Positions 2,230 to 60,639 of a stretch of DNA of 64,000 bases are shown here, piece after piece (position 1 is the first letter of the stretch; each line of letters begins with the position of its first letter). Both the position numbers and the translations under genes were made by a program. The notes under the pieces are model-generated. The model saw nothing but the letters and a program-made list of their open reading frames with translations. It searched no databases and was not told the origin of the DNA. The DNA is taken from positions 62,001 through 126,000 of the forward strand of contig JAPLDJ010000010.1 of the NCBI GenBank assembly GCA_026391805.1, written 5' to 3'. Source of the DNA: Bacteroidota bacterium (GTDB lineage Bacteria > Bacteroidota > Bacteroidia > Bacteroidales > FEN-979).

Positions 2230-4629
2230 CTAAATTCCTGCATTCACCTTCTCAACGATCCCTTTATCCCCGTTCAGGATAACCCTATCGCCTGTTTTCA
2301 GAAACTGTTTGGCGCCTTTGGCGCTGACGACGGCGGGGATCCCATACTCTCTTGCGACGACTGCCCCGTGGGAAAGCGGGCTCCCAATCTCCGTGATCAG
2401 CCCTGAAACAATGCTGAAATAGGGTGTCCAGCCGATATCTGTAAAGGATGCCACCATGATCTCCCCGGGTTCCAGGAATGCAGCGTCATCCAGCGTTGTG
2501 ACAACCCTGACCCTGCCTTCAACGGTTCCGCTGCTGACCGGGATACCTTTCAGCTGTCCATCAAGGATTTCAATAACCTTTTCCTCTTCAAGGGGTTCAG
2601 GGATGCCGTAGCAAACCTCACTGAACTGAAGGGCGGCAGTCTCCGGCATCTGTTCCCTCCGCTTTCCGGCTTTGGCCCGCCACGAAGGGGAATAATCATG
2701 GATCATCTGCCCGATCTCTTCTTGCGTCAGGTAGTAAACCTGGTCAGTATCATTCAGCAACCCTTCCTTCACCAGCAGTTGAGCATACTGCTGCCATGCA
2801 AGCCGCACCTTATGGAGCAGCCGGATGGATGCCGATTTTGTGATTTCTCTCCGTGACACGGAAAGACGGGCGGTTTGTAAAAAGGATCTGATGAAAATCC
2901 GCTGGAACGGTTTTAATTCTTTCAGGATAGCATTGGCCTTTTTCAGGGAATGCTCATGTGCATGTTCCTTTGCACCCGACTTAACACGTGTCTGGAGCAT
3001 CCTGACCAGTTGAACAGGATCCTCTTCCCACGGTTTCTCATGAAGTTCGGCCTCCCTGACACACCGGTGCCCGTGACGCCTGAGGAAATTAACGTATTCC
3101 CGTCTGATCTGCGGAGGTGAATCCTGCACGAGAAGACGCAGCGCTTCATCGGGGGCGGCTGAACAGAAAATTCCCGAGAATCTTTTTTCGGACTGTATAA
3201 GGGATGCGAACCGTTCGAGTGACTGAACCGCATCAGCGCTCTCGATGTCGGGAATGTCGGTCAGCAGAAGTGTTGCAATATGATGATCCCCGGCCGTCGG
3301 AAGATGTTTGTTGGATGTGAGGATGCCCATAATTGCAGAATACAATGTTCCTGACTGGGCGGAAGCAATGATGTGATGCCCGAAAGCTTCTTTCAGAGCC
3401 TCCCTGGCTGCTTCCAGCGAACGGTAGTCGGCATTGATCTCATCCTTCATCTCAATTTTATAATGATCGGCAAGAAAAAGGAGGCGTCTGACATTCTTTT
3501 TCGTCCAGCTGAGGCTGATCATCTGTTTGAAGAAATGAAGAACACGCATCAGGATATTGCTTTCATGCTTCACAGCGGGCATATCGATCACCTTGCCAGT
3601 GATGGCAAACTGAACATTTTCAGCCTTGTTCATCCAGACGTTCCGCGGATAGTCCATCATGTTGCTCATGTTGATGAACAGACGATTGTAGAACATCTGG
3701 ATGTAGCGGAAACCGTCATATTTTTTCAGGCTGTAGGCGCTTGCTGCCTGGGCCAGAACGGTCATCCCATAATCAACCGCATGAAACGATACCGAATAGG
3801 TAAGCGGGGTTACCACGCCCGGCATCATCTCGCCGATGTTACCCAGGGTCCATGTATCCGTACTGCTTCCTTTAACGGTATCAAGTTCATTGTAATGAAC
3901 GCCGTTCAGGGTTGTGACCGGCCGGACCTGCAGCCAGTGAAGGATGCCGTCGTCATCGATGGCCCATTCCATATCGACGGGATAGTTCAGATGATCCTCT
4001 GCTTTCTTAACGCCATCAAGGATCTCGGTCAACTGAGCTTCCGAAAGAAGATTTTCCTTTTTCTGGATTTGTTGCAGGATGTTCGATCCGCTCCGGTAGA
4101 GCTCGTAATGAATGGCATCTTTTGCCCCGCTCACAAGCTCTTCGCCATGGCCTTCAACGGCATTGATGACGACCCGGTCGCGCCGGTGAGTGACCGGATC
4201 GGCGGAAAATACGACGCCGGCCACTTTGGCGTTGACCATGTTCTGTAAGATCACAGAGATGCGCAGGTCGGCATTTTCGCTCAGGTTGGTGGCATATTCC
4301 TTCACCCGGACTGACCGGGAGGCTTCAACACATTTCACGATCGCATCGCGGATCTCATCATAGCCATTCAGGTGCAGGAAAGTCTCAAATTGTCCAGCAA
4401 ACGAAGCATCCTTACCATCTTCACTGACGGCAGATGAACGGACGGCTTTTGGTCCCTTTCCAAGCGTGGCAATATTCTTTTTCAGGATTTGATCATCCAT
4501 GCTTTTTAGGTCGGGGTGGATGATAACAAATGCATCAGGTACCTGCAGGCCAAGGTCTTTAAGTACCTTCAACCCCATGGCCTTGCCACCGATCTTTTCG
4601 TCGGTTATTTCATGGATGAATTTGATCAC
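2230..4629 (-). CDS. PEP synthase / rifampicin-phosphotransferase-like enzyme
   Basis: 799 residues in three parts. Residues 1-240 are the PPDK/PEP-synthase ATP-grasp domain (GGKAMGLKVL, VRSSAVSEDG at 63-72, FAGQFET at 77-83, PVDMEWA at 217-223, LQVRPVT at 233-239). About 250-690 is a long helical region without recognised motifs. The last 100 residues are the swivelling phosphohistidine domain with GSPLSHGAVVAREYGIPAV; His754 is the predicted phosphate carrier. A C-terminal PEP/pyruvate barrel is missing. This ATP-grasp, helical middle and terminal His-domain order is that of rifampicin phosphotransferases, which phosphorylate a small molecule, so a true PEP synthase is unlikely. The start is GTG and overlaps the upstream gene's stop by 4 bases (GTGA), so the two are co-translated. 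Confidence 0.8.
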   Translation of the reverse strand: MIKFIHEITDEKIGGKAMGLKVLKDLGLQVPDAFVIIHPDLKSMDDQILKKNIATLGKGPKAVRSSAVSEDGKDASFAGQFETFLHLNGYDEIRDAIVKCVEASRSVRVKEYATNLSENADLRISVILQNMVNAKVAGVVFSADPVTHRRDRVVINAVEGHGEELVSGAKDAIHYELYRSGSNILQQIQKKENLLSEAQLTEILDGVKKAEDHLNYPVDMEWAIDDDGILHWLQVRPVTTLNGVHYNELDTVKGSSTDTWTLGNIGEMMPGVVTPLTYSVSFHAVDYGMTVLAQAASAYSLKKYDGFRYIQMFYNRLFINMSNMMDYPRNVWMNKAENVQFAITGKVIDMPAVKHESNILMRVLHFFKQMISLSWTKKNVRRLLFLADHYKIEMKDEINADYRSLEAAREALKEAFGHHIIASAQSGTLYSAIMGILTSNKHLPTAGDHHIATLLLTDIPDIESADAVQSLERFASLIQSEKRFSGIFCSAAPDEALRLLVQDSPPQIRREYVNFLRRHGHRCVREAELHEKPWEEDPVQLVRMLQTRVKSGAKEHAHEHSLKKANAILKELKPFQRIFIRSFLQTARLSVSRREITKSASIRLLHKVRLAWQQYAQLLVKEGLLNDTDQVYYLTQEEIGQMIHDYSPSWRAKAGKRREQMPETAALQFSEVCYGIPEPLEEEKVIEILDGQLKGIPVSSGTVEGRVRVVTTLDDAAFLEPGEIMVASFTDIGWTPYFSIVSGLITEIGSPLSHGAVVAREYGIPAVVSAKGAKQFLKTGDRVILNGDKGIVEKVNAGI

Positions 4630-5636
4630 GGCTTGTATTTATCGGCATGAAACCCAAACTCGACCATTCCGAGTCCTTCCACCTGATCGAATTTGTAGGT
4701 GCCGATTGCTTCATACATCAGGTATTTCTGATCCATGATGTAAGGGAAATGCCCGTTGCGGTTGAATTCCATGAGATGCTTCTTGCCGCTTCTCATCTTA
4801 AGTTCGATCATGGCATGATCCGGGAGTAATTTTTCCCTCGATACGGTCTCAAGGTCCGTGCATTCAACAACAGCGTCGATCATTCCGTCGGGTTCAACAA
4901 CAAATCCTGCCGTAAGGCGGCCCAGGAATTCCCACTTGATCGTGGTCACGGTCCAGCTGTAGCCTGCATCCGATTTCCCGGTAATCCAGTAATGACGGTC
5001 CCAGGTATTCCAGTTCCGCGAACCAAAAGAGTGGTCGCGCGAACCCCACATCTTCAGGTCGTGCCGTATTCCGTCGAGAATGATATATCCGTTCAGGCTG
5101 CCGGTTTGCTCATAGTGAACCTGGTGGGTGTCTTTCAGCATGAAGAAGAATTTCTTGTTCCACTTTTCGGCAGCGAGGGCATCTGCGATCATCCGCTGAT
5201 CCGAGCTCTTCTCAAAATCATAAATGGGATGTTCGCCGTTAAAAAGCAGGTTCGTTTCACAGCTATGTTCTTTCCCTTCGTTGTCCGTTACCATTCCCTC
5301 ATAGGTGATCCTCCAGATCTTGCCAACCTCTATGGGTTCCCATTTCAGATTCCCGACCTGGAAACCTTCACCTTCGGGACCGGGATCCTTGTGCAGACCG
5401 AAAAATCCGAAGCCGTTGAGTTTAAAATCAAACCAGTGCTCGTGGGGCCGGTTCGGACCGCGAAGAGCCATACGGGTAATGAAGGCATTCCCTTCCCGGT
5501 CGCCGCCGTAAAAATAGGAGCTGTCGTTGGGATAAGGCTGTGAGAGATCAACGTGTTTCTGTTCAAGGATTTCAACAGGCAACTGGCGGCTCTTGGTCCG
5601 TTTTACCATCTGCCGTGCAATAAGTCGTTTCAGCAT
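4626..5636 (-). CDS. Uncharacterised protein, partner of the PEP-synthase-like enzyme
   Basis: 336 residues, soluble, no signal peptide or membrane segment. Two similar halves rich in beta strands can be seen: an N-terminal part with RPHEHWFDFKLNGFGFFGLHK and a C-terminal part with RDHSFGSRNW and EGLGMVEFGFHAD. The conserved GSRDHSFG and EGxGMVEF elements recall lipocalin-like AttH/DUF7064-type domains found beside lipid or steroid enzymes. That link is tentative. Its stop overlaps the GTG of the downstream enzyme by 4 bases, which argues for a shared pathway, for example binding the molecule the partner phosphorylates. Confidence 0.6.
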   Translation of the reverse strand: MLKRLIARQMVKRTKSRQLPVEILEQKHVDLSQPYPNDSSYFYGGDREGNAFITRMALRGPNRPHEHWFDFKLNGFGFFGLHKDPGPEGEGFQVGNLKWEPIEVGKIWRITYEGMVTDNEGKEHSCETNLLFNGEHPIYDFEKSSDQRMIADALAAEKWNKKFFFMLKDTHQVHYEQTGSLNGYIILDGIRHDLKMWGSRDHSFGSRNWNTWDRHYWITGKSDAGYSWTVTTIKWEFLGRLTAGFVVEPDGMIDAVVECTDLETVSREKLLPDHAMIELKMRSGKKHLMEFNRNGHFPYIMDQKYLMYEAIGTYKFDQVEGLGMVEFGFHADKYKP

Positions 5637-8301: not shown

Positions 8302-8324
8302 TGTAGTGCAGTTGTGATTGAGGT

Positions 8325-8380
8325 CATACGACATACGTCATACGTCATACGTCATATGTCTTATGTCTTATGTCTTATGT
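8325..8380. repeat. Heptanucleotide array with stepwise drift, 8 units
   Basis: Units in one register: CATACGA, CATACGT three times, CATATGT, CTTATGT three times. Each change is kept by the following units. It lies directly upstream of the HEAT-like gene and between divergent genes. Confidence 0.95.
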
Positions 8381-11110: not shown

Positions 11111-11201
11111 GTCCGAGGTCTGATGTCAGAAGTCTGATGTCCGAGGATAGAGTATAGAGTATAGCACCCAGCATCCAGCATCCAGTATCCAGCATCCAGA
11201 A
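11111..11201. repeat. Heptanucleotide array, 13 units in one register
   Basis: Reading from 11111 in sevens: GTCCGAG, GTCTGAT, GTCAGAA, GTCTGAT, GTCCGAG, GATAGAG, TATAGAG, TATAGCA, CCCAGCA, TCCAGCA, TCCAGTA, TCCAGCA, TCCAGAA. The sequence shifts gradually while the period never slips. The array begins 2 bases after the stop of the DHS-like gene. Confidence 0.95.
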
Positions 11202-20171: not shown

Positions 20172-20360
20172 TAGCGAAATAGCGAAAAGCGAAATGGCGA
20201 AATGATCTGTGTAATCTGTGAAATCTGTGGTAAAAAATTACTACACGAAGATCCACGAAGAAGACACGAAAGACACGAAAAACTATTGTGAACTATTGTG
20301 CCTAATGTGGTGAAATTAAAATAGCGAAAAGCGAAATGCTTATGACGTATGACTTATGAC
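20172..20360. repeat. Composite of short-period repeats filling an intergenic gap
   Basis: In order: AGCGAAA-type units of 7-8 bp (20172-20203), ATCTGTG every 9 bp (20205, 20214, 20223), CACGAA at 20244, 20254, 20265 and 20274, ACTATTGTGA twice at 10 bp (20282, 20292), AGCGAAA again (20322-20337), and TTATGAC-type heptads (20340, 20347, 20354) that end on the uvrD stop codon. No gene is present in this gap. Confidence 0.8.
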
Positions 20361-22711
20361 TAAACAATCTTCAGCTTCGCAAAACGCAGCAGTAACTGTT
20401 TCTGCCCGATGCCGGGAAAGAAGACCGTGGCTTTCTTGTTGGGTCCGTTTCCTTCGATGCTGATGACCTTGCCTTTGCCGAAACGTTCATGTTCAACCTC
20501 CATTCCAACCTGGACATCATCATCATTTGATGCCGGAGCTGCCGGTCCCGAAGAAATATTATTCAGCTTCCTGAAATTCTTCAGGTTAACCGGTTGTTCT
20601 TTTTTGACCGGTGTAATGCCCGGAAGTATTGAGGAGAAATTATCATCGGAGGGGAATCCTGCATGCCGGGTCATGGGCCGCTGGGGACGATCGATGTGTT
20701 CTTCCGGGATCTCCTGTACAAAGCGGCTCGGATCATTGGATGTCAGGTTGCCCCACCGGTAGCGGTTTTCGGCGTAGCTGACCGTCAGTTTTTTCTGCGC
20801 CCGGGTGATGGCAACGTAGAAGAGCCGGCGCTCCTCTTCAAGATCGCTCCTGGATGACATCGACTGACTGGAAGGGAAGAGGTTCTCTTCGAGACCTACA
20901 ACATAAACATGAGGAAACTCCAGTCCTTTCGCAGCATGAACGGTCATCAGCATCACCTTGTCATCATCTTCATCATCGCTCGTGTCCTGGTCGGTCAGAA
21001 GGGCAATGTCCTGCATGAACTTGTCGAGGGTTTTGACTGATCCGTCATCCTGTTGCGGTGTATCGGCTTCCCCCTGGATCATGGGATCTGCATAAAACAG
21101 CGGGTCGTTCGTCGGGTTCACTTTTTTTTCGGTGAACTCCTTGATGGCATTCAGCAGCTCTTCGATGTTCTCAAACCGGCTGACACCTTCCGGTGTCTTG
21201 TCTTCGTATAATTCTTTCAGCAAGCCGCTCGAAGTGGCGATCTCCCTTGCCATTTCAAAAGCGGGCTTCGTTTTCAGGTGGACGGCAAAACTCTGGATCA
21301 TCGTGATGAAGGTGGTAAGTTTGCCCCAGGTGCTTTCCGATAACTGGACATGGCAGGAAGCAGGATTCTCCAGGATCTCGAAGATGCTTTTTTTGTATGT
21401 GTCAGATGCGACGACCAGCTTTTCAACCGTTGTTTTTCCAATACCCCGTGCGGGAACATTGATGATTCTGAGAAGTGCATCTTCATCCTTCGGATTCACA
21501 ACAACCCTGAAATAGGCCAGGAGGTCTTTTATTTCTTTCCGCTGGTAGAAGGAGAGACCGCCATAGATCCGGCAGGGTATGTTCATCCGCCTCAGAGCAT
21601 CCTCAAGTGAACGGGACTGGGCATTGGTCCGGTAGAGGATTGCAAAGGCAGCATTCAGGAGCTGCCCGTTCATCTTGTTCTCGAAGATTGACTGAGCTAC
21701 AAGCTGGCTCTCCTCCCCGTCGGTGGATGAACGGATAAGGGTAATCTGCGATCCCTGGTCATTTTCAGTCCAGATTTCCTTGTAGATCTGTTGCTTGTTG
21801 TTGGCGATGATGCTGTTGGCCACTGCCACGATGGTCTTTGTGGAGCGGTAGTTCTGTTCGAGTTTGAAAGTCTTCAGGTCAGGATAATCCTTCTTGAAAT
21901 TGAGGATGTTCTGGATGTTGGCGCCGCGGAAAGCATAGATGCTCTGTGCATCGTCGCCCACCACGCAGATGTTCTCATTATTGGCTGCGAGCGATTTGAC
22001 GATCAGGTACTGGGCGTAATTGGTATCCTGGTACTCATCGACAAGGATGTAATGAAACTTTTTCTGGTACTTGTAAAGCACATCCGGGAAATCGCGCAGC
22101 AGGATGTTCATGTTGTACAGAAGGTCGTCGAAATCCATGGCCGATGCCCTGAAAAGCCGCGCCTGGTATTGTGTATAAAGTTGACCGGTGAAGGGTTTCC
22201 CGGAGCTGGAATCATAATCCCTGAGCTCGGGTGTATCATTGTATTCCTGGGCCGAGATCAGGCTGGTTTTTGCAGCGGAGATGCGGTGAAGGATGTACCC
22301 GGCCGGATAAACCTTCTCGTCAAGGTTGTTGTCCTTCACAAGGTTCCTGATCGTCCGCTTGGAATCTTCGGTGTCGTAGATCGTGAAGTTGGAAGGATAC
22401 CCCAGCTGGTGACCGTCGATCCTCAGAACCCGTGCAAAAATGGAATGGAACGTACCCATCCAGACACTCTGTGCATCTGTGCTGCCGACCAGCTGGAAGA
22501 TCCGGTCCTTCATTTCCCGGGCAGCCTTGTTTGTAAACGTGAGTGCAAGGATGTTGAACGGGTCGACGCCCTTTGTAAGCAGATGCGCCACCCGGTATGT
22601 GAGAACGCGTGTCTTGCCCGAGCCCGCGCCGGCGATCACCATCACCGGCCCTTCAGTGCATTCCACAGCCACGCGCTGTTCCTCGTTTAGATCTTTCAGA
22701 ATATCTGCCAC
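20360..22711 (-). CDS. UvrD/PcrA/Rep-type ATP-dependent DNA helicase
   Basis: 783 residues. All superfamily 1A motifs are present: Q motif LNEEQRVAV (8-16), Walker A GAGSGKT (28-34), LVDEYQDTN, VVGDDAQSIYAFRGA, LEQNYRST, and VMLMTVHAAKGLEF near residue 560. The C-terminus (VGMEVEHERFGKGKVISIEG) is a PcrA/UvrD-type Tudor-like domain that binds RNA polymerase. The enzyme unwinds 3'-5' in repair and replication restart. The start is GTG at 22711 with a -7 box 19 bases upstream. Confidence 0.93.
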   Translation of the reverse strand: MADILKDLNEEQRVAVECTEGPVMVIAGAGSGKTRVLTYRVAHLLTKGVDPFNILALTFTNKAAREMKDRIFQLVGSTDAQSVWMGTFHSIFARVLRIDGHQLGYPSNFTIYDTEDSKRTIRNLVKDNNLDEKVYPAGYILHRISAAKTSLISAQEYNDTPELRDYDSSSGKPFTGQLYTQYQARLFRASAMDFDDLLYNMNILLRDFPDVLYKYQKKFHYILVDEYQDTNYAQYLIVKSLAANNENICVVGDDAQSIYAFRGANIQNILNFKKDYPDLKTFKLEQNYRSTKTIVAVANSIIANNKQQIYKEIWTENDQGSQITLIRSSTDGEESQLVAQSIFENKMNGQLLNAAFAILYRTNAQSRSLEDALRRMNIPCRIYGGLSFYQRKEIKDLLAYFRVVVNPKDEDALLRIINVPARGIGKTTVEKLVVASDTYKKSIFEILENPASCHVQLSESTWGKLTTFITMIQSFAVHLKTKPAFEMAREIATSSGLLKELYEDKTPEGVSRFENIEELLNAIKEFTEKKVNPTNDPLFYADPMIQGEADTPQQDDGSVKTLDKFMQDIALLTDQDTSDDEDDDKVMLMTVHAAKGLEFPHVYVVGLEENLFPSSQSMSSRSDLEEERRLFYVAITRAQKKLTVSYAENRYRWGNLTSNDPSRFVQEIPEEHIDRPQRPMTRHAGFPSDDNFSSILPGITPVKKEQPVNLKNFRKLNNISSGPAAPASNDDDVQVGMEVEHERFGKGKVISIEGNGPNKKATVFFPGIGQKQLLLRFAKLKIV

Positions 22712-23818: not shown

Positions 23819-23910
23819 CTCTGTGAACCTCTGTGTCTTCTCCGTGAACCTCTGTGAAATAAAAAATTCTAACACGGAGTTACACAGAGAAGACACAGAG
23901 GCTCACAGAG
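23819..23910. repeat. Symmetric inverted element of helically phased CTGTG/CACAG boxes
   Basis: Left arm boxes start at 23821, 23831, 23842 and 23852 (CTGTG, one CCGTG); right arm boxes start at 23873, 23883, 23894 and 23904 (CACAG, one CACGG). Spacing is 10-11-10 on each side and every box pair is centred on 23864.5. Arms are about 39 bp and mostly complementary, around an AT-rich 14-base centre. It lies between divergent genes. Confidence 0.95.
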
Positions 23911-44899: not shown

Positions 44900-45004
44900 C
44901 GATTCACGTTACACGTCATACGTCATAAGTCATACGCCATAGGGTTTTCAACTTCTTACGCATGATTTATGTCTTATGTCTTATGTCTTATGACATATGA
45001 CCTC
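44900..45004. repeat. Heptanucleotide array, 15 units in one register
   Basis: Read in sevens from 44900: CGATTCA, CGTTACA, CGTCATA, CGTCATA, AGTCATA, CGCCATA, three degenerate units, TGATTTA, TGTCTTA three times, TGACATA, TGACCTC. The register holds across the degenerate middle. It fills the eno-mtnP convergent gap and stops 5 bases before the mtnP stop. Confidence 0.9.
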
Positions 45005-56067: not shown

Positions 56068-56103
56068 CGCAGATTTTCACAGAATGACACAGATTATTCA
56101 CAG
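56068..56103. repeat. Helically phased CACAG boxes, 4 units, single arm
   Basis: CGCAG at 56068, CACAG at 56078, 56088 and 56099: spacing 10-10-11. It matches one arm of the inverted elements at 23819 and 59150. Confidence 0.8.
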
Positions 56104-56119
56104 ACAAAATATTTTTTCT

Positions 56120-58585: not shown

Positions 58586-58621
58586 CACAGATTTACACAG
58601 AATACCACAGATTAGTCACAG
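58586..58621. repeat. Helically phased CACAG boxes, 4 units, single arm
   Basis: CACAG at 58586, 58596, 58606 and 58617: spacing 10-10-11, the same as at 56068. Confidence 0.85.
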
Positions 58622-58632
58622 ATTTTATCCGG

Positions 58633-58695
58633 CATCCGGTGTCCAGCATCCAGCATCCAGCATCCAGCATCCAGCATCCAGCATCCAGCATCTGC
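58633..58695. repeat. Heptanucleotide array CATCCAG, 9 units
   Basis: CATCCGG, TGTCCAG, CATCCAG six times, CATCTGC. The unit is that of the 11167-11201 part of the array 47 kb away. Any reading frame through it gives a repeating SIQHPAS peptide by arithmetic alone and is not a gene. Confidence 0.95.
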
Positions 58696-58796: not shown

Positions 58797-59120
58797 ATGG
58801 ACATCAGAATGACTACAACCGCATTTGAGATTCCGGGATATAAGATCACGACGAACAAGGGCATCGTAAGGGGCGTCCTCGTTCGTTCGAGGTCGATCTT
58901 TGGCAACATCGGCGCTGCTTTCCAGACGCTGGCAGGAGGGAACATCACCCTTTATACTGAACTTTGCGAAAAAACCAGGAGGGATGCCTTCGAGCTGATG
59001 ATCGCCCATGCCGAAATGGTGGGGGGAAATGCCGTGATCGGTGTCAGGTACGACACCACCGAAGTGATGAGCGGGGTGACCGAGGTGATTTGCTACGGCA
59101 CTGCCGTTGTTGTGGAATAA
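58797..59120 (+). CDS. YbjQ/UPF0145-like protein
   Basis: 107 residues from ATG 58797; ATG 58809 ([13 protein letters not shown]) would give 103 and matches the usual family start. Motifs [39 protein letters not shown] and [12 protein letters not shown] are the family blocks. These small proteins form oligomeric rings and are often called heavy-metal-binding by similarity, without proof. Single gene. Confidence 0.88.
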
Positions 59121-59149: not shown

Positions 59150-59243
59150 CGCTGTGAACCTCTGTGCATTCTCTGTGGTTCTCTGTGTAATAAAAAGATA
59201 TTTAACACAGAGGCTCACAGAGTAGACACAGAGTTACACGGAG
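59150..59243. repeat. Symmetric inverted element of helically phased CTGTG/CACAG boxes
   Basis: Left boxes start at 59152, 59162, 59173 and 59183; right boxes at 59206, 59216, 59227 and 59237 (last one CACGG). All pairs are centred on 59196.5 with 10-11-10 spacing, the same plan as at 23819-23910. The centre is AT-rich. It lies between convergent genes. Confidence 0.95.
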
Positions 59244-59278: not shown

Positions 59279-60514
59279 TTATTCTTTCACGAATTTCCCT
59301 GTTCCCAAGGACTTCCCACCATCAAGAACCCTGAAAAAATAAAGACCCGGGAGCAGGTTTTCCGTATTCAGGCTGATTGTGTTCGAATGGATATCATTGA
59401 TCCGGAGGACTTCCTTGCCAAGAATATCATGAACAATAAGTGTTGGTCCTGATGATCCTTCAAATGTTCCGATATCAATAGTACAATTTTTATCAACAGG
59501 ATTTGGGTATATCCTGACTTCGCTTTTCGGAAGATCAGCAGACTCAATTCCGGATACTGTTGATGAAGCCAGCCAGATCGTAGCATTCATAAGCAGTTTC
59601 TCGTGGTTGCCGTTGGCATCCCCCGTCCATCCGTTGTAAAGCTGGTCGTTAGGATCGCCGGTACCGTCGTCACAGGGGGAACTGTCGCCAATGCCGGCTA
59701 CCCGTCCGCTCCCGTAAGTTGCATGGGCGACCATCACATTTGTACTCCCGAAGCTCGATCCTGTTTTGTAAACCACACCAACCACCGATGAATTATGAGA
59801 CGTTGAGAGTGTCATTGTTGTTCCGCCACTCCATTGTGCCCTTGTGACAGCCCCCATCGGCCCATGCAGAAGAGGGTCGGAGGGAAGGTTCGGGATGTTG
59901 GTGGTGGTTTGGGAAAAATCTGCATAATCAAAGGTCATTCCGAACGGGTTGGAGGCAATGGAGTTGTTGCTCATCAGGTCGTTCCAGATGTGCGGTGAAT
60001 CGTAGCCATCGTTGTTGCGGTCGGAATTATCGTGATCGGAGACCATGAACAGCCCGCCCCCGTTCTGCACGAAATGAAGGATCGCTGTCTTCTCTGATGC
60101 GATAAACAGAATGTTGGGTTCGCAAACGATGAATACCTTGTATTTCGACAGGTCCTGAGCGTTGCCAGCGTTTCCGTATGTGATCTGTCCGTTGTATGGC
60201 AATGTCTCGACCGTATATCCCTTCTTCACACAATCGATCCCCCAGGCAGAGATCGCTCCTTCCCAGTAAGTTTCAGAGGTTGATTGTGTAACGCCCGACT
60301 GCGCCGGGGTGGGAATCTTTTGAGCATTCGATTCATCGCCATTGTTGAGTATAGCCGGTCCGCTTGAGTACCCGAGGTTATGCTGGTCGGCATCGATCAC
60401 CCAGTCGGCATTGCCCGCTGCTTCAGCTTTTGTTGCATCAAAGAGAATTTTGACCTGGGCATGAACATTACCGGTCAGAACAAGGAAAATAAAAACAATC
60501 CGGAGACACTTCAT
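59279..60514 (-). CDS. T9SS-secreted protein with type A sorting domain
   Basis: 411 residues from ATG 60514. Signal peptide MKCLRIVFIFLVLTGNVHAQ. The middle (about 25-300) has a GATase1/DUF4350-like look: FIVCEPNILF, then FVQNGGGLFMVSDHDNS, and later GSGRVAGIGDSSPCDDG. The last 75 residues are a type A T9SS sorting domain (RIYPNPVDKNCTIDI, LPGLYFFRVLDGGKSLGTGKFVKE). It is exported across the outer membrane by type IX secretion and probably attached to the surface. The enzymatic role is unknown. Confidence 0.85.
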   Translation of the reverse strand: MKCLRIVFIFLVLTGNVHAQVKILFDATKAEAAGNADWVIDADQHNLGYSSGPAILNNGDESNAQKIPTPAQSGVTQSTSETYWEGAISAWGIDCVKKGYTVETLPYNGQITYGNAGNAQDLSKYKVFIVCEPNILFIASEKTAILHFVQNGGGLFMVSDHDNSDRNNDGYDSPHIWNDLMSNNSIASNPFGMTFDYADFSQTTTNIPNLPSDPLLHGPMGAVTRAQWSGGTTMTLSTSHNSSVVGVVYKTGSSFGSTNVMVAHATYGSGRVAGIGDSSPCDDGTGDPNDQLYNGWTGDANGNHEKLLMNATIWLASSTVSGIESADLPKSEVRIYPNPVDKNCTIDIGTFEGSSGPTLIVHDILGKEVLRINDIHSNTISLNTENLLPGLYFFRVLDGGKSLGTGKFVKE

Positions 60515-60540
60515 CAATTATGGATTACACTGTTCTTGGT

Positions 60541-60582
60541 CATAAGACATACGTCATAAGTCTGAAACCTTATGTCTGAAAT
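60541..60582. repeat. Heptanucleotide array, 6 units
   Basis: CATAAGA, CATACGT, CATAAGT, CTGAAAC, CTTATGT, CTGAAAT in one register. Related to the arrays at 8325 and 44900. Confidence 0.8.
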
Positions 60583-60587
60583 GTAAA

Positions 60588-60639
60588 GTGCGAAGTTCAT
60601 CAGACTTCGCACCTCACACCTGCCTGCCGGCAGGCAGGT
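60588..60639 (-). terminator. Two palindromes downstream of the tRNA
   Basis: A 22-base perfect palindrome (60618-60639, core CCTGCCTGCC/GGCAGGCAGG) and a hairpin GTGCGAAGT/ACTTCGCAC with a 7-base loop (60588-60612), followed on the minus strand by TTTACATTT. The second may end tRNA transcription; the first resembles dispersed Bacteroidota palindromes. Confidence 0.4.

Follow-up and report, generated by a model that had tools for sequence, protein, structure and literature searches.

At positions 59150-59243 of the 64,000-nucleotide stretch of DNA analyzed here (the window), two inverted arms, each composed of four CTCYGTG heptamers at +0/+10/+21/+31, are arranged around a center at 59196.5. 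The original prediction had described eight boxes with a 10-11-10 plan per arm, as well as a copy with the identical plan at 23.8 kb, and both were found as described. The features of the two copies are:

59150..59187, plus strand: left arm, four CTCTGTG boxes (box starts 59150, 59160, 59171, 59181), spacers AAC, CATT and GTT
59188..59205: hairpin loop TAATAAAAAGATATTTAA, 18 bp
59206..59243, minus strand: right arm, four CACAGAG boxes (box starts 59206, 59216, 59227, 59237)
23819..23856, plus strand: left arm of the sister hairpin
23857..23872: loop of the sister hairpin, 16 bp
23873..23910, minus strand: right arm of the sister hairpin

In the copy at 59150-59243 two boxes deviate, the first of the left arm (CGCTGTG) and the last of the right arm (CACGGAG). 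This copy lies between convergent neighbors, a YbjQ-like gene ending at 59120 and a gene for a T9SS-sorted protein on the minus strand (59279-60517). The convergent setting, taken earlier as a sign that the element is not tied to promoters, thus holds for this copy but not for the sister hairpin at 23819-23910, which is situated between divergent genes. Within the same genus, the hairpin is absent beside the YbjQ homologs of three genomes (G003, G004 and G002, the last homolog being partial and with a stop), where the neighbors differ. No empty orthologous site was found among the same-genus genomes, 3/4 of which have a YbjQ homolog, with synteny lost there.

Pairs of boxes with at most three mismatches occur 17 times in the window versus 3.15 expected, a number reached in 0/100 shuffles. 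Arms matching at least 22/28 box positions number four (two copies with two arms each), versus none in three mononucleotide-shuffled windows. Given this excess of box pairs and the empty reversed-pattern control (see below), chance does not account for the hairpin plan. RNA folding gave z-scores of -7.1 and -6.2 for the copy at 59150-59243, and of -10.0 and -10.5 for the sister copy. A known RNA family was ruled out, as a covariance-model search of the window against Rfam at the gathering score had a tRNA as its sole match.

When the complete assembly of this organism (3.89 Mb, 28 contigs) was scanned with the 10-11-10 spacing fixed and at most two mismatches, 49 CTCYGTG arms were found, 23 forward and 26 reverse. 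The reversed (not complemented) pattern gave 0 forward and 0 reverse matches, and the reversed controls of the CTCYGTG, ATCTGTG and CTTCGTG scans were 0 in every genome row shown. With the middle spacer left free at two to four bases, 36/40 matches had four bases and 4/40 had three; when boxes near 30 of these 40 places were listed with no constraint on spacing, most of them fell at 10-11-10. In the stretches read, arms of at least 20/28 form 18 two-armed hairpins and 10 arms without a good partner, some of which have a degenerate partner by eye; at a stricter cut the same arms make up 26 elements. The loop measures 12-21 bp in the 16 best pairs, so that the phase is kept within an arm and not across the center of the hairpin.

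Among 42 arms of this genome that were selected for at least 24/28 box matches, a selection that favors the boxes, information content was 1.86 bits per position in the boxes, 0.82 in the three-base spacers, 1.22 in the four-base spacer and 0.36 in the outer flanks. This bears out the proposal that spacing is conserved over variable spacers, and the conservation of the boxes fits recognition by a protein on one face of the DNA. The third spacer is AAC in 20 arms, GTT in 13, TAA in 7 and AGC in 2, and common sets are TAA/TCTT/AAC in one arm with AGC/TCTA/GTT in its partner; so small a vocabulary also bears the traces of copying from a few types of arm. The original prediction had reasoned that spacers as conserved as the boxes would point to recent copying of one sequence: the boxes are far more conserved, but the few spacer types mean that this objection applies in part. 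At the inner side, 20/42 arms begin with TAA and 15 with AAA. A TAA/TTA border on every arm was therefore rejected, TAA being present in only about half (20/42). Arms can also join across classes: the loop at C6:115875 has a CTCTGTG arm on one side and a CACGAAG arm on the other, and CACGAAG-like and CTATTGTG boxes come after the CTCTGTG arm at C1:96479. In these joins the arms behave as exchangeable modules.

The two arms of a hairpin pair with each other in their boxes, but in three genomes their spacers pair less than those of re-paired arms: 63/160 versus a mean of 84.8 in the own genome (fraction 0.0004, right arms shuffled), 32/110 versus 57.3 in G006 (fraction 0.003) and 68/110 versus 76.9 in G013 (fraction 0.011), with all arms re-paired in the latter two. 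As the copies are related, a founder effect could account for this instead of selection. By a simple ORF rule, 23/26 elements could be classified as co-directional (12), convergent (8) or divergent (3), and of the remainder two lie inside an ORF and one at a contig end; gaps in the window are co-directional in 14, convergent in 8 and divergent in 9 cases (n = 31). The suggested association with transcript ends is therefore weak (8/23 classified elements convergent versus 8/31 gaps). If the host kept the hairpins as intrinsic terminators or for the protection of 3' ends, they would be expected to fold strongly, which they do, and to lie close to neighboring ORFs, which they often do, the divergent sites being few (3/23). 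We nevertheless regard such a role as very improbable, given the reduced spacer pairing in three genomes, the absence of the hairpin at the same-genus homologs of the neighboring gene and the position of the sister copy between divergent genes.

The flanks of the 18 hairpins had no consistent target-site duplication, two of them sharing three bases by eye. The hairpin ends, also by eye, are without GTAG or CGTC, and GTAG is confined to the interior of some arms, where it spans the TCTA spacer.

Genes encoding GxxExxY proteins (PF13366) often sit among repeats of this kind, which prompted a test of their flanks. PF13366 was found in 34/61 genomes (the own genome and 60 relatives), with 147 matches summed. 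From these, 90 loci were taken (the first 30 and 60 near-full-length ones down the list, all five of the own genome included), the matches left out being mostly weaker or partial. By eye, most of the 90 loci have inverted phased boxes on both sides. The box differs between genes (CTCTGTG, CTTCGTG, ATCTGCG, CTTTGCG, CTTAGTG, CTATTGTG and others), and the left and right arrays of one gene share a box.

For a motif-free test we scored the best heptamer shared in inverted orientation between the two flanks in chains of three boxes 8-11 bp apart, against 200 dinucleotide shuffles, with control windows 700 bp further out; 2/90 loci were too short to score. At a threshold of at most 10/200 shuffles 68/88 genes passed versus 3/80 control windows, and at no more than 1/200 this was 55/88 versus 0/80. 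An earlier statistic, requiring four boxes at 10-11 spacing (89 genes, 84 controls), separated the two more poorly, since the boxes of some gene classes are spaced at 8-9 bp. The three-box statistic was chosen after that result, and loci from named genomes (the best 80 among the matches listed, of which two were too short and 78 were scored) served as a test on further loci. Here, 55/78 genes versus 2/64 controls passed at up to 10/200 and 47/78 versus 0/64 at up to 1/200; the two samples overlap in at least three loci (L198, L201 and L206). Failing genes numbered 20/88 in the relatives and 23/78 in the named genomes, some with a one-sided array by eye. Outside Bacteroidota, passing loci are labeled Ignavibacteria, Planctomycetota, Anaerolineae, Roseiflexus, Acidobacteria, Beta- and other Proteobacteria, and Opitutaceae, and failing ones Methanothrix (archaeal), Leptolyngbyaceae, Rhizobium, Sumerlaeota, Chlorobiaceae and some others of the passing phyla; most of these records are metagenome bins, in which single taxon labels may be wrong. 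A locus of the cyanobacterium Stenomitos passes narrowly (9/200), its left array being unclear by eye. No report of an association between arrays and GxxExxY genes was found among the matches listed from the open-access literature, in which the available excerpts on GxxExxY make no mention of repeats.

The hairpins and the GxxExxY genes also occur together across genomes. Of 295 genomes across the class, 18 have CTCYGTG arms with at most one mismatch, and PF13366 is present in 18/18 of these versus 183/295 overall (p 1.3e-4, descent ignored). Among the 61 own and related genomes, PF13366 is present in 18/21 genomes with arms at up to two mismatches versus 34/61 overall (p 6e-4, descent ignored); arms occur in G016, G026 and G053 with no PF13366 match. 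The own genome is part of both samples. The binding-site array of the original prediction we consider half right. Box conservation fits recognition by a protein; the nucleoid part of the idea is not supported, and the relatives point to GxxExxY arrays, since the box, the spacing and the inverted layout are those of the arrays flanking the GxxExxY nuclease genes, in the relatives as well as in several other phyla. An organization of the chromosome by a nucleoid-type protein through such arrays would agree with a 10-11-10 phase that is kept over variable spacers, but hardly with the patchy occurrence (18/295 class genomes, 21/61 own and related genomes) and with the linkage to a nuclease gene, and we give it little credence.

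Further arms of other box classes are present in the window:

58586..58623, minus strand: single arm of the ATCTGTG class with spacing 11-10-10, as in the arms of the GxxExxY gene C21:403035
56068..56105, minus strand: degenerate single arm of the ATCTGTG class, 25/28
20244..20281, minus strand: arm of the CTTCGTG class, 22/28, a class with an own-genome GxxExxY gene at C15:9724
20283..20308, plus strand: array of the CTATTGTG class, 20/21, a class with an own-genome GxxExxY gene at C2:65161

The own genome has five GxxExxY genes, one with an internal stop, and by eye none of the five has CTCTGTG boxes. ATCTGTG arms number 48 in this genome (11-10-10 spacing, at most three mismatches), two of them flanking the gene C21:403035 and two lying in the window. 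CTTCGTG arms number 22 (at most three mismatches), three being overlapping steps of one long array, and 8/22 share 28 identical bases with the right array of the gene C15:9724. CTTAGTG arms at 10-11-10 were 0, as was their reversed control; this is an imperfect comparison, the class being known here only from other genomes and its gene-linked arrays possibly using another spacing. Arms thus number 48 and 22 in classes with a cognate gene (ATCTGTG, CTTCGTG), and 0 and 49 in classes lacking one in this genome (CTTAGTG, CTCYGTG). Three classes (ATCTGTG, CTTCGTG and CTATTGTG) connect solo arms of this genome to its own GxxExxY genes. At two further places in this genome (L310 at C12:18718 and L307 at C5:86378), ATCTGTG, CACGAAG and CTATTGTG arrays adjoin one another, in many cases preceded by GGTGAAA, which gives arrays the look of landing sites for other arrays.

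That the arrays belong to one unit with the GxxExxY genes is a conclusion in which we have high confidence. On a protein tree, the box class changed 14 times, versus a minimum of 30 and a mean of 35.7 in 300 shuffles (50/68 labeled genes, in nine classes of at least three, heptamers merged into classes by hand; the tree was a quick one with many unresolved forks). As cis linkage alone would make the box class follow the tree, this shows one unit and not recognition. Four copies from three genomes (L134 in G012, L138 and L099 in G002, L130 in G001) are 92-94% identical in the ORF and 82-91% in the downstream array. Their outer 60 bp are 38-55% identical upstream (3/6 pairs measurable, the L130 flank being too short) and 42-50% downstream (six pairs), against a background with a median of 47% and a 95% point of 55%. 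BLAST blocks of the three pairs with L134 run from -33/-34 before the start codon to +44 after the stop codon, which by eye are the outer array edges; those of the other three pairs end at -45 and at +54 to +67. Exceptions are L134/L136, two copies in one genome, with outer stretches 85% and 67% identical, and L099/L136, with an outer downstream stretch 70% identical. In some well-matched copies, then, homology ends with the arrays or shortly outside them.

For the CTCYGTG class, a gene-bearing form exists in the same genus, where at G001:C85 an arm (22201-22238), the gene (22255-22605) and a second arm (22619-22656) follow each other; similarly, CTCYGTG arms surround a GxxExxY gene in G149 and G065. 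In G032 (L291) the gene lies between two hairpins, and in G006 (L282) a hairpin and a further arm accompany a gene fragment with an internal deletion (PF13366 positions 50-116, one stop). In G013, about 105 bp are enclosed by a minus/plus arm pair at five places, four of which resemble each other. The outward-facing pairs at L276, L277, L279 and L280, which enclose similar sequence of about 105 bp, could point to a second cargo, and the same arm layout is seen in G034 around a common stretch of about 60 bp (L292, L293).

The order of arms at L081 is CACAGAG, gene, CTCTGTG, with TTA and TAA outside, and in solo hairpins CTCTGTG, loop, CACAGAG. This inside-out relation gives the solo hairpins the look of a circle junction, which is not general. 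That a solo hairpin is the junction of a circularized unit, or a site at which units join, is accordingly a weaker inference. Arrays are bordered by TAA/TTA at 2/6 of the CTCYGTG-class gene loci looked at (L081 and L110), and the polarity is reversed in minus/plus pairs 9 and 19 bp apart in G013 (C32, C100) and in one pair in L098; the polarity exceptions and the scarcity of these borders weaken the idea of a circle.

The gene between the arrays matches PF13366 and TIGR04256 only. Its residues GxxE, D, ExK and QxxxY, which we take to be the RecB-family nuclease signature, are kept in 88-90/90 sequences. A structural model of the G001 protein (L081) has a mean pLDDT of 95. Its best solved Foldseek match is lambda exonuclease (E 0.0075, probability 0.97), with none at E 0.001 or better, and the best VIA match is 4ic1 (SSO0001; Z 10.1, rmsd 3.1, 98 residues), presumably a Cas4, followed by BpuSI (Z 8.0). 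The entry 4ic1 was also the sole match in a sequence search of the PDB (E 0.79). PADLOC gave a weak Cas4 profile match for 2/3 proteins (best E 0.0018), and a defence system was rejected, as these matches are weak. From its conserved residues and the model, the GxxExxY protein is predicted to be a Cas4/lambda-exonuclease-like PD-(D/E)XK nuclease and looks catalytically intact.

Considering all of the above, we put the probability at about 60% that the hairpins are gene-less (non-autonomous) relatives of a selfish unit consisting of an array, a GxxExxY gene and an inverted array, with boxes that are recognized by the nuclease. The unit itself is well supported; binding, cutting and movement we infer from sequence. 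Since the hairpin is built like the ends of GxxExxY units, it may belong to a type of miniature mobile DNA not described so far, and we have moderate confidence that the GxxExxY nuclease drives the spread of the units. In such a mechanism, small PD-(D/E)XK monomers would line up along one face of the DNA, a monomer on each box in succession and one for every helical turn. The assembled nuclease would nick or resect at the array, after which repair or a circular intermediate would insert a copy between genes, gene-bearing or gene-less and without a consistent target-site duplication. In a variant, the units would home into pre-existing arrays. DDE chemistry is unlikely because target-site duplications are not consistent, and no DDE enzyme was found at the arrays.

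The units could also be moved in trans, by an IS200/IS605-type transposase, a RAYT or the replication/repair machinery, with GxxExxY as a passenger. Arms that fold as in REPINs and the lack of a consistent target-site duplication are compatible with this, as are the two Y1_Tnp genes of the own genome. A single CTTCGTG arm is situated some 1.4 kb away from one of these genes, but no CTCYGTG arm was found within about 1.5 kb of either, and a RAYT partner for the hairpins was rejected on this lack of linkage. A passenger, moreover, would not be expected to retain its catalytic residues or, across several phyla, arrays with matching boxes on its two sides, and we think mobilization in trans quite unlikely. 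As to carriage, GxxExxY relatives were found in 8/72,556 plasmid records and in 0 of 50,697 phage records, and one contig in IMG/VR has the full hairpin pattern. On that contig (IMGVR_UViG_3300001335_000658, L312), the CTCTGTG hairpin, around 4540-4730, has further boxes beside it.

Alternatively, the arrays might be binding sites of GxxExxY for self-control or for marking the genome (e.g., self versus foreign), the arms being spread by ordinary recombination. Arrays often abut the gene at its start and stop, in an operator-like position, and the box follows the protein on the tree. However, some copies lie in unrelated contexts and lose homology at or close to the edges of the arrays, the gene-less and internally deleted forms resemble a unit in decay, and the downstream array is without an obvious regulatory use. 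For these reasons control or marking appears unlikely to us, and the selfish, array-bounded unit is preferred.

The selfish unit has parallels in several known systems. According to excerpts of two reports, the RAYT of REP/REPIN systems is encoded by a small gene between inverted repeats, the repeat type follows the protein, and the dispersed intergenic hairpins have no larger target-site duplication (PMC2817692, PMC3116915); a REP is given, in the part available of a third, as a palindrome of 20-40 bp with a GTAG or CGTC tag (PMC3733652). In both systems the gene lies between two inverted repeat copies, 68/88 GxxExxY genes passing the array test. In contrast, RAYT is an HUH tyrosine transposase whereas the GxxExxY partner is a predicted PD-(D/E)XK nuclease, and the repeat is a heptamer array phased at 8-11 bp rather than a tagged palindrome of 20-40 bp. 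The GxxExxY units are not members of the RAYT-REPIN systems, although by analogy they may work like them. With DDE-dependent MITEs the hairpins share shortness, inverted ends and many gene-less copies; they differ in their internal phased boxes and in the lack of a consistent target-site duplication. Similarly, the GxxE-D-ExK-QxxxY residues and the predicted fold resemble RecB, lambda exonuclease and Cas4, but GxxExxY is a stand-alone protein of 123 residues bounded by arrays.

In Coxiella, heptamer repeats upstream of S23p have been described for the IVS, in the portion available of that report (PMC4990558). An IVS with S23/IVP is likewise a selfish unit with one small ORF in its stem and heptamer repeats beside the ORF. 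The protein family is another one, the gene between GxxExxY-type arrays being PF13366 and not the four-helix S23/IVP; the S23/IVP arrays in the relatives here have a pitch of 7-8 bp, and the IVS is best known inside 23S rRNA, whereas the GxxExxY units here are without rRNA context. A broader reading, in which array-bounded mobile units are widespread in bacteria, with a small Cas4-like nuclease, specific for the phased heptamer array at either end, moving its own gene and gene-less hairpins, possibly via a circle with the hairpin as its junction, and S23/IVP as a parallel, is offered as a tentative possibility. The polarity exceptions, the count of TAA/TTA borders and the archaeal locus that fails the array test make it less probable. 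If it is true, S23/IVP built the same architecture at a pitch of 7-8 bp, and pitch and box would together be readable as codes of the protein that recognizes them.

GxxExxY proteins are common, with PF13366 in 183/295 genomes of the class, and are named only by a motif. If the arrays are GxxExxY sites, each gene has its own substrate beside it, and specificity and activity can be tested together. The selfish unit, if true, would explain widespread intergenic repeats and add a role in mobility or homing to RecB-type nucleases.

A motif, TATTACYTT...GATTAA, was seen within 160 bp upstream of 28/88 GxxExxY genes versus 1/84 controls, with 0 on the opposite strand, and is perhaps a promoter. That it is common to GxxExxY and IVP genes was rejected (2/29 IVP genes), and it is claimed for GxxExxY alone.

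At four-helix S23/IVP genes (PF05635; L166-L195, relatives), inverted 7-bp tandem arrays were found at 22/30 scored loci versus 1/26 controls (at most 10/200 shuffles). Seven of the other eight loci pass the 8-11 bp test, an uncontrolled result, and have an 8-bp pitch by eye. Heptamer tandem arrays also occur in the window, at 8323-8380, 11163-11199, 20339-20363, 44967-44999, 58627-58692 and 60536-60600; their heptamers (GTCATAC, AGCATCC, TTATGTC, ATCCAGC) are of the kind that flanks IVP genes in the relatives.
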